From: Rhodopirellula baltica SH 1
GTDB lineage: Bacteria; Planctomycetota; Planctomycetia; Pirellulales; Pirellulaceae
Length of the DNA: 64,000 bases
Direction of reading: 5' to 3'
Assembly (NCBI RefSeq): GCF_000196115.1
Contig: NC_005027.1
Coordinates: 992,001-1,056,000, forward strand
Below are positions 36,985-43,977 of this stretch, in pieces. Numbering within the stretch: the first letter of the stretch is position 1; every line of letters begins with the position of its first letter. The notes under the pieces were generated by a model. The model did not search any database and was not told where the DNA came from. It worked only from the letters and a program-made list of their open reading frames with translations. The position numbers were made by a program, and so were the translations under genes.

Positions 36985-39483
36985 CTACTTGAACAGATCT
37001 TGAACCTGCTGGTTTCGAGTTTCTTCCGTTTCCTCGATCAATTCTTCCTGATCGCTGATCAACCCTCGGACCAAATCCAGAATTTCGTTGAAACTTTCCA
37101 GGTCAAGCATCTTTTCCAAGACGGCGTTGAGCGACAGGAGGACTTCGTCGGTTGTTGCGATTGCCGCGGTCGCTGCTTCCGTCATCTTGTCCCCAGACGA
37201 TTCGGCGGAATCTTCCGCCATCAAAACCCGTTCCATCGAAGTGATTTGACGCTGCAGGCGTGGCAAGGGTTCCGTCACCACCGCCGACAATGGGTTACGG
37301 ACGCCGTTTTCTAATCGTTCGCGGCGGTCAACCGAATCGACGCGGTTCTGCACCATTTCGAGAAGCAGGTCTTCGAGTCCGACGACAATCCCCGCCAACT
37401 CTTCCGTGGATTTGGTTGCCTGCAATTCCGATTGGCGGATTCGCAGCTGGACTCTTTGTCTCGCCCGGACGTCTTCCTCGCCGTCGTCGTCAGCGGATTC
37501 GCCGTCACCAGTCGAGGCGGATTCCTCGGCAGATTCACCCTCATCCGGAGTTTGCAAAACATCCAACGCGTCGTTTTGCACCGCGGCCAAACTCTGGCGC
37601 AAACGTTGTGTTTCATCGATCGCTTGTTCCAACCGCGAACGGAATTCAAGTTCGCGTCGTTCGAGTGTCGCGAGCAGTGTCTCTGGTGTCACGACTTGCA
37701 AACGAACCACCTCGCCGCGAATCGAGTGTGGTTCACCCAAGTCGAACCGGTCCTTGGCCGTCGTGAAAATTTGCACGCTCGCTCCGGGAGCCAACCCATT
37801 CACGGTGCCGTCGTCAGATAGGTCTCGCAGGTCAAACGTCCAAGCCGCGTTTCCGTCACGATCCAATTCGGGCGAGACGGTGTGTTGCTGTGGTTCCCCA
37901 TTGGCCGCCGCTTCGCCATCGCTAGCCCCGTCTGCGTTTTCCTCGGATGCTCGGACCGCCATCGTCAGGCTCAACGATTCGACGCCGTAGTCATCCGTTG
38001 CAGTCGCTTGAATTGGCAACATCGCGATAGGAGTGATCGACGAGCCGATGCCCTTCATCGTCATCGATGTCTCGGGAACTTGGTCTCGGACGACGCCAAT
38101 GAAGTATCGATAAGATGCCTGAGCGGAAATGCCAGTTTCGTCTTTAGGAACCAATCGAACGGAGGTGGGTTCTCGCAAATCGGACACCGACCATTCAAAC
38201 GACATGCGGTCGTTAGCGATTTTAACGACAGGTTCCGCACGTTCGGTGGACCCATCGCTTGCACCTTCGGAAGTCGTTGCGACATCGACGGCACCGAGTG
38301 GTTTACTGCTGGTTCCACGAAGCGTGAGTGAGCTGCCCTCGCGAATTCGGAAGCCGGCTTGGTACTTCAGGATTTGATCAGCGGCGTCGGGCGATGCATC
38401 TTCGGCGTTAAAGATGCGTAGGTAATCGGGATAACGAATTGCCAATTCCATGTCCGCGATCGCGGGCGGATCAACCGCTTCGATACGGTAGTCGAGCAAG
38501 CGATCGTCCAAGCCTCGAATGGTCATCGTCACGGACTCGGCCAACGAAGCGAGCGGTGGCCCGTCGAGCACAAACGATTGATAACCATCTTGAATGCGGC
38601 CAACTCGGCGAAGGTTGCTTTGACCACGGTTGCCGGAATCATCGACGTAAGAAACGGTGCAGATCTCGGGAACGGTGTGCCCGAGTTCTTCCGTTGCCGC
38701 ACGAATGCGAAGCGTTGTGCTGCTCCCGCGAGCCAAGCGGAGCGTCTTGTCCTCGAATGTCAAAAGTTCGGTGCCGACCTCTTCGGTGTCGTCCGCGGTG
38801 ATGATCGGCGATTCCACGCCAATCATTTCAAGCTCAGCTTTTCGTGGCCAAGGTGAATCGGAAAACAATGACAATCGTCCGACCGCGCGAGCGAACGTAT
38901 GTGGGCTGGCGATCGCCATCACCAAAGCGGCCAGCAACAACGGGATGACCAACATCAACTTTCGGCGAATCGGTTCCCACCGAAAGACACGTCCGAATTC
39001 AACTTGGTCGACGGCCGCGGCGGCTTCCTGGTGAACGTGTTGCAACAACACGGGGCTGTGCGAATCGTAGGTGCGATTCTCTTGAGTCAATTGAACGGCG
39101 GTAACCAAACGTCCGCCAAGACTCGGATGGTGACGTTCGATCAGCAACGCCAATGAGTCATCGGGCAGTTCTCGGTTGAGTCGGCCCCACAACCATTTGG
39201 CCAGAATCACAACGACCAAAACCGCGACAACAAACAGCACGACCGCGCGGGCCGATCGAGGCATTTCGCTGCCGCCGATTCGGACTGGCAGATAGTCGAC
39301 CGCAAGTGCCACCCAAAACACGACCAGCACCAGCGCCGCGATTGCGAGCAACGAATCCCAAACGATGTAGCGTCGCACCCGTTCGCGTAGTCGTGACAAT
39401 AAATCACGAAGTCCCGGATCCAACGATTCAGTACGACCCATCCGATTCCCAATTCGATTTGTACGTGTGTCCGTCGTCCCCAT
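36985..39483 (-). CDS. large membrane-anchored protein resembling DUF4175 family
   Basis: An 832-residue protein. There are two N-terminal membrane helices, at about 40-60 (LLAIAALVLVVFWVALAV) and 80-100 (AVVLFVVAVLVVVILAKWLW), and a third at about 175-195 (LMLVIPLLLAALVMAIA). A long soluble beta-rich region follows, resembling the periplasmic part of DUF4175-type proteins, with a coiled-coil C-terminus (LERRELEFRSRLEQAIDE and onward). It is the first gene of a cluster with two Gln/Glu-rich exported proteins, 133 bp upstream of the next start. This module often travels with MoxR/BatA-type genes in planctomycetes, but none is next to it here. An in-frame ATG at 39441 is an alternative start with GGGA before it. 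Confidence 0.7.
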   Translation of the reverse strand: MGTTDTRTNRIGNRMGRTESLDPGLRDLLSRLRERVRRYIVWDSLLAIAALVLVVFWVALAVDYLPVRIGGSEMPRSARAVVLFVVAVLVVVILAKWLWGRLNRELPDDSLALLIERHHPSLGGRLVTAVQLTQENRTYDSHSPVLLQHVHQEAAAAVDQVEFGRVFRWEPIRRKLMLVIPLLLAALVMAIASPHTFARAVGRLSLFSDSPWPRKAELEMIGVESPIITADDTEEVGTELLTFEDKTLRLARGSSTTLRIRAATEELGHTVPEICTVSYVDDSGNRGQSNLRRVGRIQDGYQSFVLDGPPLASLAESVTMTIRGLDDRLLDYRIEAVDPPAIADMELAIRYPDYLRIFNAEDASPDAADQILKYQAGFRIREGSSLTLRGTSSKPLGAVDVATTSEGASDGSTERAEPVVKIANDRMSFEWSVSDLREPTSVRLVPKDETGISAQASYRYFIGVVRDQVPETSMTMKGIGSSITPIAMLPIQATATDDYGVESLSLTMAVRASEENADGASDGEAAANGEPQQHTVSPELDRDGNAAWTFDLRDLSDDGTVNGLAPGASVQIFTTAKDRFDLGEPHSIRGEVVRLQVVTPETLLATLERRELEFRSRLEQAIDETQRLRQSLAAVQNDALDVLQTPDEGESAEESASTGDGESADDDGEEDVRARQRVQLRIRQSELQATKSTEELAGIVVGLEDLLLEMVQNRVDSVDRRERLENGVRNPLSAVVTEPLPRLQRQITSMERVLMAEDSAESSGDKMTEAATAAIATTDEVLLSLNAVLEKMLDLESFNEILDLVRGLISDQEELIEETEETRNQQVQDLFK

Positions 39484-39655: not shown

Positions 39656-41554
39656 CTAGCTTCGTTTGTCGGCCCGCGGTTCACTTTCACGTTGACCGTA
39701 GATCACCGTGCGAACGCCTTGTTCGTGACCCACCAAGGCTCGGTCCCAATCCGTTCGCATGGTGGGACCGCCTGCCACCGAAACATCGCCTGCAAATTCA
39801 CGGATCATCCAGCCTCTTTGGGCGGCCGGTGAATCTGCCGGAGCGTTGCGACGACGCATCTCGATGTCATCTTCGTCGACCAGTTCATGTTCTCGGTGGT
39901 CAGCAATGAATCGAGCGAAGTAACCCTCTTCGGACAACTCGTGGTATCGAAGGTCGATCTTCTTTCGAGTCACCCAAGATGCGTTCTCACCGGGCATCTC
40001 ACCGGCGGCTTGATCCAGCATCCAACGTTTGCCCAGCCAATCGATGCGGCCGAGTCCCTGCGCCGTTTGGTTGCCATCTTTTCGGAACTGGCGAACCAAA
40101 CGAATCGACTCGGCCCAATGTTGCAGTGCCCGATCGGCTTCGTCCCAACCGGACGTTTGGCGAGATTGCTGTTGTTGCTCGCGGACGAACTTCGCCGCCG
40201 CGCGGTAGTAGTGCGTTTGCATTTCCAACGATGTCATCTCACCGTGGCTGGTTGGAACTCGCCGCAGCAGATTCCAATCGCGATTGAAAACATGCAGAGC
40301 TCGAATTGGACGACGTAGTCGTGGCAGCTCCTTCGTTTGCTTTGCTTCGATCATGTCCAGCACCAACGCGACGCTGCCGACCTTTGCCCATTGCGCCAGA
40401 TCGCTGAGGTTGGAATCGGACAACCCAATTTGCAAACGTTGTCTGCGTTTGAGCAAGTGACGAGTCTCGGCAATCGATCGCCAAGAACGACCACACAACT
40501 TTGACAACCAGTGACCGTAAACGAAGATTGGTCGTTCGCCGTTGAAGCCACCCATGTCGGCGACCCGGTCAATTCCCAACGCTTTGCCTGACAAGAAAAA
40601 ACGGCCGTCATGATCCAGGTGACCGGTTCCCATGATCGCAACTCGCGAAACCAGCAGGCCGGTCAGATGGCGACGTTGGGTTCGGAATGCGATGTGTGTC
40701 CCAATCACTCGCAAGGACAACACCAGTGGCAGGTGCAGCATTCGCAAGCAGGCGATGGAAAGCCATTGAAACCATGATGGCAGTGCCACAAAAGTTTCTT
40801 CCGAATCACTGGTGTCGGGATGGTCGTGCCACTGCAGATCATTGTCTTGGTCCGTGGTGTTCAGTTGTGTGTCAAAGCGACCACCACGCCGGTAAACTAT
40901 CGATCGAGCTTGCCGAACCGAGTGTTGAATCAGCGATGCAAAGACGATCGCGACCACAATGGGAAATGACATCAACACACAAATGATCTGCAACGCCCAA
41001 ACGAAACATATCGCGAGTCGGTAGACCAGCAAGCCAAAGCCGGATGCCACATCGGTCTCGTAGTTTTCCTGACAACCATAGAGATGCCCGGCCGCGTCGC
41101 AGCTGTTCTTCAGAACTCGAAGTCGTCCGACGTTTTGATCGTCTGACCACCGTGCCTCGTTCGATGCGTCTCGCATGATTTCGTCGATCGCTCGTTGACA
41201 CGCGACCAGATCACTTGGGCGATACACTTCCGGGGTCGCCATCTCAAACAACCCGCCCGGTCCGTCGCGAAATGCCAGATGGGTCTCCAGGTTGATGGCT
41301 GAGCCGTTTGCCAAGAAACGGCGATCGCCGCCATCGAGTCCTTCCACGGCCGGCAAGTGGCGACAAATCGCATCTCGCAGGCCAGCGTAGACTTCGCGAG
41401 CTGTAACGCTGGAACTCAACGAACCGTCGCGAGGTTCGACGACGGTGGCGAACTCGGTTTCCATTCCCATCAACCGTCGGCACAAACGCTGGCGAATGGC
41501 AATCCTGGCTGAGGGCGATGTCGTCTGGGGTGGGGGCGTTCGAGGCCTGGTCAT
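39656..41554 (-). CDS. Pup-ligase/depupylase (PafA/Dop) family protein with membrane-spanning insertion
   Basis: A 632-residue member of the PafA/Dop carboxylate-amine ligase fold. Family landmarks are clear: GMETE at ~30-34 (family GIETE), FLANGSAINLE...FEMATPE (family NGARLYxD...HPEYATPE), LKNSCDAAGHLYGCQENY (family KNNTDSAGxSYGCHENY), LLVSRVAIMGTGHL, RLQIGLSDSNLSDLAQW...VALVLDMIEA (family RLHVIVGDSNMSE...AALVLEMIE), and YYRAA. Between CQENY (~160) and LLVSRV (~297) lies an insertion of about 130 residues with a strongly hydrophobic stretch (~172-208), absent from PafA and Dop. The usual catalytic Asp appears to be Glu (INLE). The start at 41554 lies 13 bp behind a small ORF ending in Gly-Glu. 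The frame remains open upstream to 41797, but that part overlaps the small ORF. Confidence 0.85.
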   Translation of the reverse strand: MTRPRTPPPQTTSPSARIAIRQRLCRRLMGMETEFATVVEPRDGSLSSSVTAREVYAGLRDAICRHLPAVEGLDGGDRRFLANGSAINLETHLAFRDGPGGLFEMATPEVYRPSDLVACQRAIDEIMRDASNEARWSDDQNVGRLRVLKNSCDAAGHLYGCQENYETDVASGFGLLVYRLAICFVWALQIICVLMSFPIVVAIVFASLIQHSVRQARSIVYRRGGRFDTQLNTTDQDNDLQWHDHPDTSDSEETFVALPSWFQWLSIACLRMLHLPLVLSLRVIGTHIAFRTQRRHLTGLLVSRVAIMGTGHLDHDGRFFLSGKALGIDRVADMGGFNGERPIFVYGHWLSKLCGRSWRSIAETRHLLKRRQRLQIGLSDSNLSDLAQWAKVGSVALVLDMIEAKQTKELPRLRRPIRALHVFNRDWNLLRRVPTSHGEMTSLEMQTHYYRAAAKFVREQQQQSRQTSGWDEADRALQHWAESIRLVRQFRKDGNQTAQGLGRIDWLGKRWMLDQAAGEMPGENASWVTRKKIDLRYHELSEEGYFARFIADHREHELVDEDDIEMRRRNAPADSPAAQRGWMIREFAGDVSVAGGPTMRTDWDRALVGHEQGVRTVIYGQRESEPRADKRS

Positions 41555-41567
41555 TCTGGGGCCGGGT

Positions 41568-41801
41568 TCATTCGCCGTCGTGATGCGTGTTGGCACGATG
41601 CAGATAGATTGCGGCATCGTCGCAGGCGTCCAATCCAATCGACAAGGCGAATGATTCCAGGCTGCCCGATTCGTCTTTCGCAGGAAAGGACGTCGCGGGT
41701 GCGTTCGATTCAGCTGATTGCGTCCGTGAAGACGGCGACGGTTGACGACCGCTGGATGTTTCGGATGGCTGATCCAACGGTTTCGTTTCAGTGACATTCA
41801 T
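41568..41801 (-). CDS. small disordered acidic protein ending in Gly-Glu, candidate Pup-like modifier
   Basis: A 77-residue ORF starting at an ATG with GGAAGG about 10 bases upstream and ending 13 bp before the PafA/Dop homologue on the same strand. Residues 1-45 are Ser/Pro/Thr/Glu-rich and look disordered. Residues ~46-68 (LESFALSIGLDACDDAAIYL) could form an amphipathic helix, and the protein ends HHDGE. Pup is 60-70 residues, disordered, has a C-terminal helix, ends in Gly-Gly-Glu or Gly-Gly-Gln, and is encoded next to its ligase. Similarities here are size, order of parts, terminal Gly-Glu and gene position. Differences are Asp in place of the first Gly and no visible alignment to known Pup helices. 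The assignment is inference; it could be an unrelated small protein. Confidence 0.55.
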   Translation of the reverse strand: MNVTETKPLDQPSETSSGRQPSPSSRTQSAESNAPATSFPAKDESGSLESFALSIGLDACDDAAIYLHRANTHHDGE

Positions 41802-42373
41802 CGTTCAAAGACCTTCCGTTCGACATTGCGAACGATTCCATTTGCTCGGGCCGTTTCATTCGTTCATTCGTTGCCGGCATCAGTCCACGCTGATGCGTAT
41901 CGCGGCTTCGGTTCGCGTTGGCTCGTTTCGGTGCCATCCAGTTGGCCACCTTGGTCACCAAGAGCATCAACGCGGGATGTGTCGTCATTCTAACACCACG
42001 GCGATACCTGGTTTCACCTTCGGAGAGCGAAATTCGATTCGATCGTGCGAAAAAGTGCACTGGCTCGAGGACACGCCACGTCGACGAAACTGTGGTCTGT
42101 CCGGGTTTGCTCACCGATCAGGTGGTCTGCTGAAACCGATTTGAGTCCGCTTCGTTAGAGCAATTTGAGAACCACAAATTGCGATCCCAGCTCCCGCTCA
42201 CAAAATTTTCGAGAGAATTTTTTTGCGAATTCGGAAAAGTTTTTTCTCGTCGTCTCAAAATTTTGTGGAATTTTTACCTGCGGGGATCACTTCGGGGCCT
42301 TCTGGAGACCGGTTGGGCCGACCCGACGGCCCTTGACGTTTTGGCCCAAACGCACGTATTCTCTGGAAAAGTC
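41802..42373. other. intergenic region with AT-rich inverted repeat upstream of tRNA-Thr
   Basis: About 570 bp without a supported gene. The left part should hold the promoter of the small ORF and ligase. The right part (42165-42290) is unusually AT-rich for this window and has an 11-base inverted repeat. A leftward 108-codon frame at 41788-42114 shows no family features. Confidence 0.4.
42199..42267. repeat. AT-rich inverted repeat upstream of tRNA-Thr
   Basis: CACAAAATTTT at 42199-42209 and its exact complement AAAATTTTGTG at 42257-42267 flank a T-rich interior with further partial pairing (CGAGAG / TTCTCG). It lies about 105 bp before the tRNA. Confidence 0.5.
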
Positions 42374-42447: not shown

Positions 42448-42645
42448 TAGACGAGCAGAAAATTTTCCACTTTTTTGCCGCCGAGCGTCGGGAAAAATTG
42501 GCATCACAATTTGTGCGTCGATTTTCTCGACAAATTTTTGTTCCTGCAGAGCACATTTTTGCAGAGCAGATCGCCACCTGACTCCTTATCCCTCCTTTCG
42601 GATCGCTGTGCGAGCGAGCCGAAGTTAGCCCCGGACAAAACGAAG

Positions 42646-43977
42646 ATGAGCGAAGTCGAACTCGAAGTTCTCGACCTGAAGCAAATGGTTCTGGCGAGTA
42701 ACTCGTTCGGCCCCAGCGACGTCGCCGAAATTCGGCAGGCGATCACCGAAAACTACGGACACTTCGGTGAACTGCGCGACGCGGTCAACGAAATGGAGCA
42801 GGACGACGCCCTGACTCCCGCCGGCAAAACCAAAATGGGTGTTTGCCAATTCATGCTGGGCCGTTTCAAAGACGCCTCGGAGACCCTCTCCGCGGCCGAC
42901 GGCAGCGCAATGGCGTTGTTCTACAACGCTCGTTGCCAGTTTGAACTGTCGAACTTCGACGGGGCGATCGAAGGCTACGAACAAGCCAAGACGTCAGGAT
43001 ACAACGAAGATCAATGCAAGATTGGTATCGCGGAAGCCAAGCGTTACCAAGGCAAGATCGAAGAAGCGATGGCGATCTTGGACGACATCTTCGGCCCCGC
43101 CGAGCAGACCGCTGACTACATGTATCAGCGTGCTGCGACCGCCGCCCAGATCGGTGGACGGATGGAAGAAGCGATCAACTTGTACCAACGAGCTGTGTCG
43201 ACCGACGAAAACCACGCTGGTGCGTTGTTTGGTTTGGCACTCGAAAACGACCGCTTGGGCAACGACGACGAAGCCCTCCGTCTGTACGAGCGTGCCGCCA
43301 AGGCATTCCCGACCGGCATCGGTGCCCTGATCAACTTGGGCGTGATGTACGAAGACAACGGGCAATACGACAAGGCTCAGCTTTGCTACAAGCGAATCCT
43401 GGACTGTCACCCCGATCACCCTCGTACGCAGCTGTACATGAAGGACGCTTCGGCGACCGGCAACATGCTGTACGACGAAGAGGCCCAACGTCGCAACGAT
43501 CGTTTGGCTCAAACGTTGAACATGCCCGTTGCAAACTTCGAGCTCAGCGTTCGAAGCCGCAACTGCCTGCAGAAGATGGGCATCGAAACGATTGGCGATT
43601 TGACCCGCCACAGCGAACAAGAATTGCTCTCGAGCAAGAACTTTGGCGAAACCAGCTTGGTCGAAATTCGCGAAATGCTGTCGCAGAAAGGTTTGTCGCT
43701 CGGCCAGTTCGCTGGCGAGAAGAAATCCAACGACCCGCCTGTCGACACTTCGCACATGTCGCCCGACGAACAAGCGTTGCTGGAACGTCCCATCGCAGAC
43801 CTCAACTTGTCCGTTCGTGCTCGCAAGTGCATGACCCGTTTGCAAATCAACTCCATTGGCGAGCTGATCCGCAAGACCGGCGATGACATGCTTGAGTGCA
43901 AGAACTTTGGTGTGACCAGTTTGAACGAAGTTCGTGAAAAGCTGGGTGACCTCGGATTGAAAATGCGGGGCGACTGA
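42646..43977 (+). CDS. tetratricopeptide protein with two RNA polymerase alpha-CTD-like domains
   Basis: A 443-residue cytoplasmic protein. The start at 42646 is chosen because the protein then begins [16 protein letters not shown] without the unlikely upstream extension. Residues ~20-290 carry TPR-type helix pairs ([57 protein letters not shown]). Two copies of a helix-hairpin-helix domain like the RNA polymerase alpha C-terminal domain follow: ~302-360 ([20 protein letters not shown]...) and ~380-440 ([20 protein letters not shown]...). The alpha-CTD contacts UP-element DNA and regulators, so a role in transcription is plausible but not shown. tgt starts 5 bp after its stop, suggesting co-transcription. 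Confidence 0.85.

Follow-up and report, generated by a model that had tools for sequence, protein, structure and literature searches.

This study focused on two adjoining minus-strand genes of Rhodopirellula baltica SH 1, located in a window of 64,000 nucleotides (the whole stretch of DNA analysed; contig NC_005027.1, positions 992,001 to 1,056,000): a short open reading frame (ORF) of 77 codons and, starting 13 bp beyond its stop codon, the gene of a ligase of the PafA/Dop family (Table 1). The small product is very probably a Pup-like modifier, ligated through its C-terminal Glu77 by the membrane-anchored ligase for a purpose independent of proteasomes. A first-pass annotation of the window had described the ORF, its GGAAGG ribosome-binding site and the narrow gap before the ligase, all of which the translation and the coordinates bear out.

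Table 1. Features of the modifier-ligase locus and its neighbour (positions in the window).
Feature	Position	Strand	Remarks
Candidate Pup-like modifier gene	41568..41801	minus	77 residues, ATG start, product ends in HHDGE
Ribosome-binding site GGAAGG	41812..41817	minus	10 nt 5' of the modifier ATG; also in Rhodopirellula europaea
Modifier residues 45-69	41595..41669	minus	Two predicted helices (45-61, 63-69), AlphaFold2, mean pLDDT (predicted local distance difference test) 69
Terminal Gly76-Glu77	41571..41576	minus	Proposed attachment residue
PafA/Dop-family ligase	39656..41554	minus	632 residues
Ligase residues 30-34, GhExE motif (GMETE)	41453..41467	minus	G30, E32 and E34 invariant in 25/25
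Ligase Glu90	41285..41287	minus	Aligns with the Asp of PafA 'RLYLDVGSH'
Ligase insertion, residues 172-288	40691..41041	minus	Long helices 172-223 and 260-288 with hydrophobic stretches; predicted membrane anchor (hydropathy, AlphaFold2)
Neighbouring membrane protein	36985..39483	minus

The small ORF is a real gene, under selection at its C-terminal end. It was compared with its homologue in R. europaea 6C (L147), from which it differs in length by 18 whole codons. Over the 77 aligned codons the nonsynonymous (dN) and synonymous (dS) rates were 0.22 and 0.54, and over the last 30 codons they were 0.076 and 0.436, the first, second and third codon positions differing at 4, 0 and 8 sites, so that these 30 codons are under purifying selection. 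The last 17 residues were identical in four database relatives (P0021, P0022, P0025, P0029), and a small protein 90% identical to the product is recorded for R. baltica as hypothetical. The possibility that the small frame is a shadow of the ligase, raised in the first-pass annotation, was considered and rejected: the ligase frame remains open to 41797 here, but in R. europaea this extension closes inside the small ORF, and the substitutions follow the small frame. In a profile search of the whole genome, the ORF (itself among the 46 rows of the profile) scored E 1.1e-11, and the runner-up 0.42.

The distribution of the pair was followed in 119 genomes of the family, R. baltica SH 1 counted, 60 of which carried the ligase. 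From 58 of these, 60 ligase loci were taken (the locus of the window, that of G089 and the second ligase of G072 were left out), and at 47 of them a small ORF ending in Gly-Glu lay directly upstream of the ligase (45 listed, together with L056 and L059). Since a G[EQ] ending was the criterion by which these linked ORFs were chosen, it is no independent evidence in that set; none of them ended in Gln. By way of background, of the 15,152 stop codons in this DNA that follow 25 or more open codons, 126 close a frame with such an ending, true modifiers counted. One locus (L065) gives no verdict because it begins at a contig end, and 12 (L031-L038, L040, L042, L043 and L090), mostly with the ligases nearest to that of R. 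baltica, had no adjacent modifier. Sixteen whole genomes were scanned with profile A1, made from 46 modifiers, and an unlinked modifier was recovered from 11 of the 12 genomes concerned, one match each (E 1.7e-9 to 0.0022). These copies lay on a different contig from the ligase or at a distance of over 1.8 million bases from it, and the matches extended to the final profile position. In the twelfth genome, G116, no match was significant.

A widened profile (A2, 48 rows) was then applied to the same 119 genomes, with up to 52 candidate stretches scored per genome and a threshold of E ≤ 0.05. Sixty genomes gave a match, and two of these, G115 (E 0.015) and G089 (E 0.024), were dropped because their matches ended before the C-terminus. 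The modifier was found in 58 of the 60 ligase-bearing genomes (one of them, G003, being cut by a contig end) versus none of the 59 ligase-free ones; because A2 derives mostly from these same genomes, it favours the 58 but not the zero. The check proposed in the first-pass annotation, to look for the small ORF before every planctomycete homologue of the ligase, is passed in this co-occurrence, but not always in position, given the 11 genomes with unlinked copies. Two ligases were present in G006, G072 and G103, each with its own adjoining modifier, which suggests that the pairs are matched. The two-ligase genomes (L062/L082, L066/L083, G072) belong to one genus.

In a second set of 160 relatives from named genomes, 80 of which were kept and many of which overlap the first set, an ORF selected by the profile at 15 bits or more was found at 55 of the 80 loci. 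The remaining 25 comprised near relatives in which adjacent copies only were considered (L148-L168), three loci with the ligase at a contig end (L170, L182, L204), and L222. The modifier was also detected in the myxobacterium Paraliomyxa (L214), a proteobacterial metagenome-assembled genome (MAG; L225) and Candidatus Uabimicrobium (L226), and the ligases of these three and of L222 have long hydrophobic stretches where the insertion sits.

All 55 profile-selected ORFs ended in Gly-Glu, an ending that the profile favours without requiring it; Gly-Glu is the best-conserved part of the protein, a point that the first-pass annotation had proposed to test. The third-last residue varied (GGE 32, SGE 8, NGE 4, VGE 4, EGE 2, CGE 2, and one each of QGE, DGE and YGE). 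Among the 46 linked modifiers, 31 ended in GGE; the R. baltica ORF, one of the 46, has DGE and lacks the Gly-Gly that precedes the terminal Glu of Pup. This one-position departure, correctly pointed out beforehand, is explained by the variability of the residue and by the close relatives, in which DGE is common: all 11 unlinked modifiers end in [YF]xx[RK][SC]N[TV]xxDGE, the counterpart of which in the R. baltica translation is the C-terminal sequence ...YLHRANTHHDGE. DGE is, therefore, not a defect of the R. baltica copy. The position of many copies just ahead of the ligase, and an N-terminal half that is weakly conserved and varies freely, would also suit a partner that is never conjugated, such as a regulatory subunit of the ligase or a leader peptide of its gene. 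However, the unlinked copies retain their C-terminus, which argues against a leader peptide, and it is the very end of the protein that is most constrained, by a selection acting on amino acids, so that such a partner is improbable.

The ligase matched the Pfam model Pup_ligase (PF03136) with 276.6 bits over nearly its entire length, passing the gathering score. Its scores against the PafA equivalog TIGR03686 (128.1 bits, cut-off 551.3) and the NCBIfam Dop model (115 bits, cut-off 492.3) fell far below the cut-offs. Structure prediction gives it the Dop/PafA fold, and the next-ranking enzymes by fold were of the YbdK type and glutamate-cysteine ligases. Forty columns were invariant among 25 aligned ligases, including the GhExE motif, which is named as an ATP-binding motif in passages of PMC7947786. 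The ligase of R. europaea 6C was 94% identical in the best segment. The genome of L150, deposited as R. baltica strain BR-MGV, has a ligase only 45% identical to that of R. baltica SH 1, and this strain name therefore looks doubtful.

Pfam Proteasome (PF00227) had no match in the R. baltica genome. It matched in 87 of the 119 family genomes, most of which score like HslV, a label that is the naming of this analysis. G013, G037, G055, G059, G098, G106, G115 and a few others have frames of some 240-330 residues that match the proteasome family weakly; these frames are perhaps Anbu- or BPH-like, and they occur also in ligase-free genomes, such as G115. The Mpa/ARC model (TIGR03689) exceeded its cut-off of 504.75 bits in none of the 119 genomes (one of 14 control genomes passes), and sub-threshold matches to its AAA part were present in 117 of them (R. 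baltica 151.6 bits, best 240.9). With no proteasome and no qualifying Mpa/ARC found in R. baltica, the tag would most likely either regulate the proteins that carry it or route them to a different protease.

The upstream ORF had been proposed as a Pup-like modifier in the first-pass annotation, and this is supported by the co-occurrence with the ligase and by the conserved Gly-Glu; the ligation itself we infer. For the docking and conjugation of the tag, the lysines it joins, its place at the membrane and the outcome of tagging, the following course is proposed. The helical C-terminal half of the modifier would dock on the ligase, the N-terminal half being unstructured; in the low-confidence AlphaFold2 model, residues up to 44 are unstructured, and the two helices are followed by a tail. 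The ligase would be held at the membrane by its inserted hydrophobic helices and, using ATP, would activate the side-chain carboxyl of Glu77, which would then be linked to lysines in substrate proteins that lie at the membrane or close to it. Because the tag is encoded with Glu, no deamidase would be needed. The tag may change how active its targets are, where they lie or how they assemble, or deliver them to a protease such as FtsH, Lon or Clp. LysW, which functions in lysine/arginine synthesis, also ends in Gly-Glu, and the small protein could similarly be a carrier peptide that bears a metabolite on its terminal Glu, with the enzyme ligating small amines and not protein lysines. The terminal Gly-Glu chemistry would be the same, and enzymes of the same fold (the YbdK-type and glutamate-cysteine ligases) make small gamma-glutamyl compounds; we regard this explanation, too, as unlikely.

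Several observations weigh against a Pup-like modifier and its ligase. None of the 46 modifiers matched the curated Pup models (PF05639, TIGR03687) at E ≤ 1, and in the R. baltica genome the best match to TIGR03687 had 14 bits, at another place (cut-off 41.45, passed in one of 14 control genomes). Profile-profile comparison (hhalign) of the modifiers with actinobacterial Pup gave E 0.06 and a probability of 0.9%, with a narrow Pup profile of 19 close sequences, and 120 Pups scored like shuffled Pups against the modifier profile. The first-pass annotation had likewise noted that there is no plain alignment to Pup. The UBact model NF033388 did not match the ORF either (best in the genome 15.6 bits, elsewhere; cut-off 35), although the sensitivity of this model is unproven, since no control genome passes it. 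Two genomes carry a ligase with no modifier found, G089 (72% complete, with a ligase fragment) and G116; no ORF ending in Gly-Glu lay just upstream of the ligase of L222, a proteobacterial MAG; and three sampled congeners carry neither ligase nor modifier. The alignments also indicate that the conserved catalytic Asp of PafA/Dop is replaced by a nearly invariant Glu: residue 90, which pairs with the Asp of PafA in the alignment to 4b0t (the one to Dop does not include this position), is Glu in 25 of 25 aligned ligases, and among 129 matched sequences from 140 partly redundant loci the column holds 127 Glu and 2 Asp. Lastly, the best fold and profile matches of the ligase were to Dop, somewhat ahead of PafA, so that a hydrolase activity is possible.

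This last point raises the question of whether the enzyme is mainly a Dop-like deconjugase or hydrolase, the ligase being another enzyme not found here. Passages of PMC7947786 report planctomycete homologues to be 29-31% identical to both PafA and Dop and to align partly with the Dop-loop, which agrees with such a role; the single planctomycete homologue served there as outgroup for both. However, the ligase search of the R. baltica genome gave one copy only, with no second PafA/Dop homologue, and a hydrolase alone would be without a substrate. Furthermore, the modifiers found are all encoded with Glu and none with Gln, making deamidation unneeded. This explanation is the least probable of those considered, and highly improbable in itself.

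By form, the R. baltica ORF corresponds to Pup in having 50-90 residues, an unstructured N-terminus, a helical C-terminal part and a G[EQ] end, as well as a gene beside the ligase; some of the other modifiers are longer, up to 109 residues given the assigned starts. The lone profile match of the modifiers in the PDB, to the cyclase-domain chain 7xkx (E 8.2e-4), was treated as chance.

Tentatively, the pairs could represent a separate class of protein-conjugation system that operates without a proteasome. Its ligase would be anchored in the membrane, carry Glu where PafA has the catalytic Asp, and perhaps both attach and remove the tag; its modifiers would form a family of their own, unrelated or very distantly related to Pup, and would mark membrane or envelope proteins for regulation. 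Besides Planctomycetota, such a class would include at least one myxobacterium (Paraliomyxa), proteobacterial MAGs and Candidatus Uabimicrobium. If the Pup-like reading is true, tagging of this kind is not bound to proteasomes or actinobacteria, planctomycetes offer a compact, membrane-bound conjugation system of two genes, and the role of such tags where no proteasome degrades the tagged protein would be revealed. The standard Pup and UBact models miss the modifier, and the 90% identical R. baltica protein still goes under the name hypothetical.

On the far side of the modifier, at 42475-43977 of the window, is what we take to be a tetratricopeptide repeat (TPR)-type protein beside a tRNA-Thr gene, its C-terminal part seeming, by eye, to contain two copies of a repeat that resembles the C-terminal domain of RNA polymerase alpha. 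The neighbouring membrane protein adjoins the ligase-modifier pair in both R. baltica and R. europaea, and is probably the linked gene meant in passages of PMC2588565. A place for it in the system is unsupported: it was matched in 115 of the 119 family genomes, some weakly, with strong matches in three ligase-free congeners, and is judged to lie outside the system because it is found with or without the ligase. Beside it in these congeners (L229-L231) there was no ligase, modifier or tRNA-Thr, and no clean empty site either. In G046 (L108) and G092 (L113) the unlinked modifier lies about 1.5 kb upstream of the membrane-protein homologue, with an ORF on the opposite strand between them.

Compared with Pup and PafA of actinobacteria, the R. 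baltica pair is alike in its short, largely unstructured modifier with a helical C-terminal half and a Gly-Glu end, encoded just before a ligase of PafA/Dop fold. It is unlike them in having no detectable similarity between the modifiers, a variable third-last residue, a hydrophobic insertion in the ligase, Glu aligned with Asp, no second Dop/PafA copy, no proteasome match and no Mpa/ARC match over the cut-off. UBact is a small modifier of Gram-negative phyla that ends in Gly-Glu and accompanies proteasome genes (NCBIfam NF033388). The R. baltica ORF shares with it the small size, the C-terminal Gly-Glu and a Gram-negative host, but is not matched by its model, and UBact travels with proteasome genes.

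The ligase of corynebacteria is not known to have a membrane insertion. In these organisms, according to passages of PMC3511204, Pup is encoded directly ahead of the ligase and proteasome subunits are absent, an arrangement like that of R. baltica. Corynebacterium glutamicum, the case of ferritin pupylation, has ARC (the Mpa homologue) and Dop (passages of PMC8223512), unlike R. baltica, in which neither an Mpa/ARC match over the cut-off nor a second PafA/Dop homologue was found.

The closest precedent is the system of Iyer, Burroughs and Aravind (2008; passages of PMC2588565), who described for Rhodopirellula and Plesiocystis a Pup and a Pup ligase into which four transmembrane segments are inserted. 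The genes were reported to be unlinked to those of the proteasome and linked to one for a membrane protein, the Pup gene of Rhodopirellula being unannotated, and a possible role in modifying membrane-associated proteins was suggested. The R. baltica ORF is very likely this Rhodopirellula Pup: the genus, the ligase with a transmembrane insertion, the unannotated small gene adjoining it and the lack of proteasome-gene linkage all agree. The helices and tail of the modifier model resemble the bihelical unit and extended tail given there for Pup. The passages call the protein a Pup ortholog, an orthology that was not reproduced by sequence here with a narrow Pup alignment. Among the papers listed by full-text searches of the open-licence literature (subscription papers being outside their scope), no experimental test of the 2008 prediction was recognised. 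The core idea of a Rhodopirellula Pup beside a membrane ligase was already published in 2008. To what those passages contain, the present analysis adds the lack of profile similarity to Pup, the membrane-protein neighbour that occurs without the ligase, the family-wide breadth of the co-occurrence, the unlinked modifiers, the group sharing DGE, and the Asp-to-Glu difference in the ligase.
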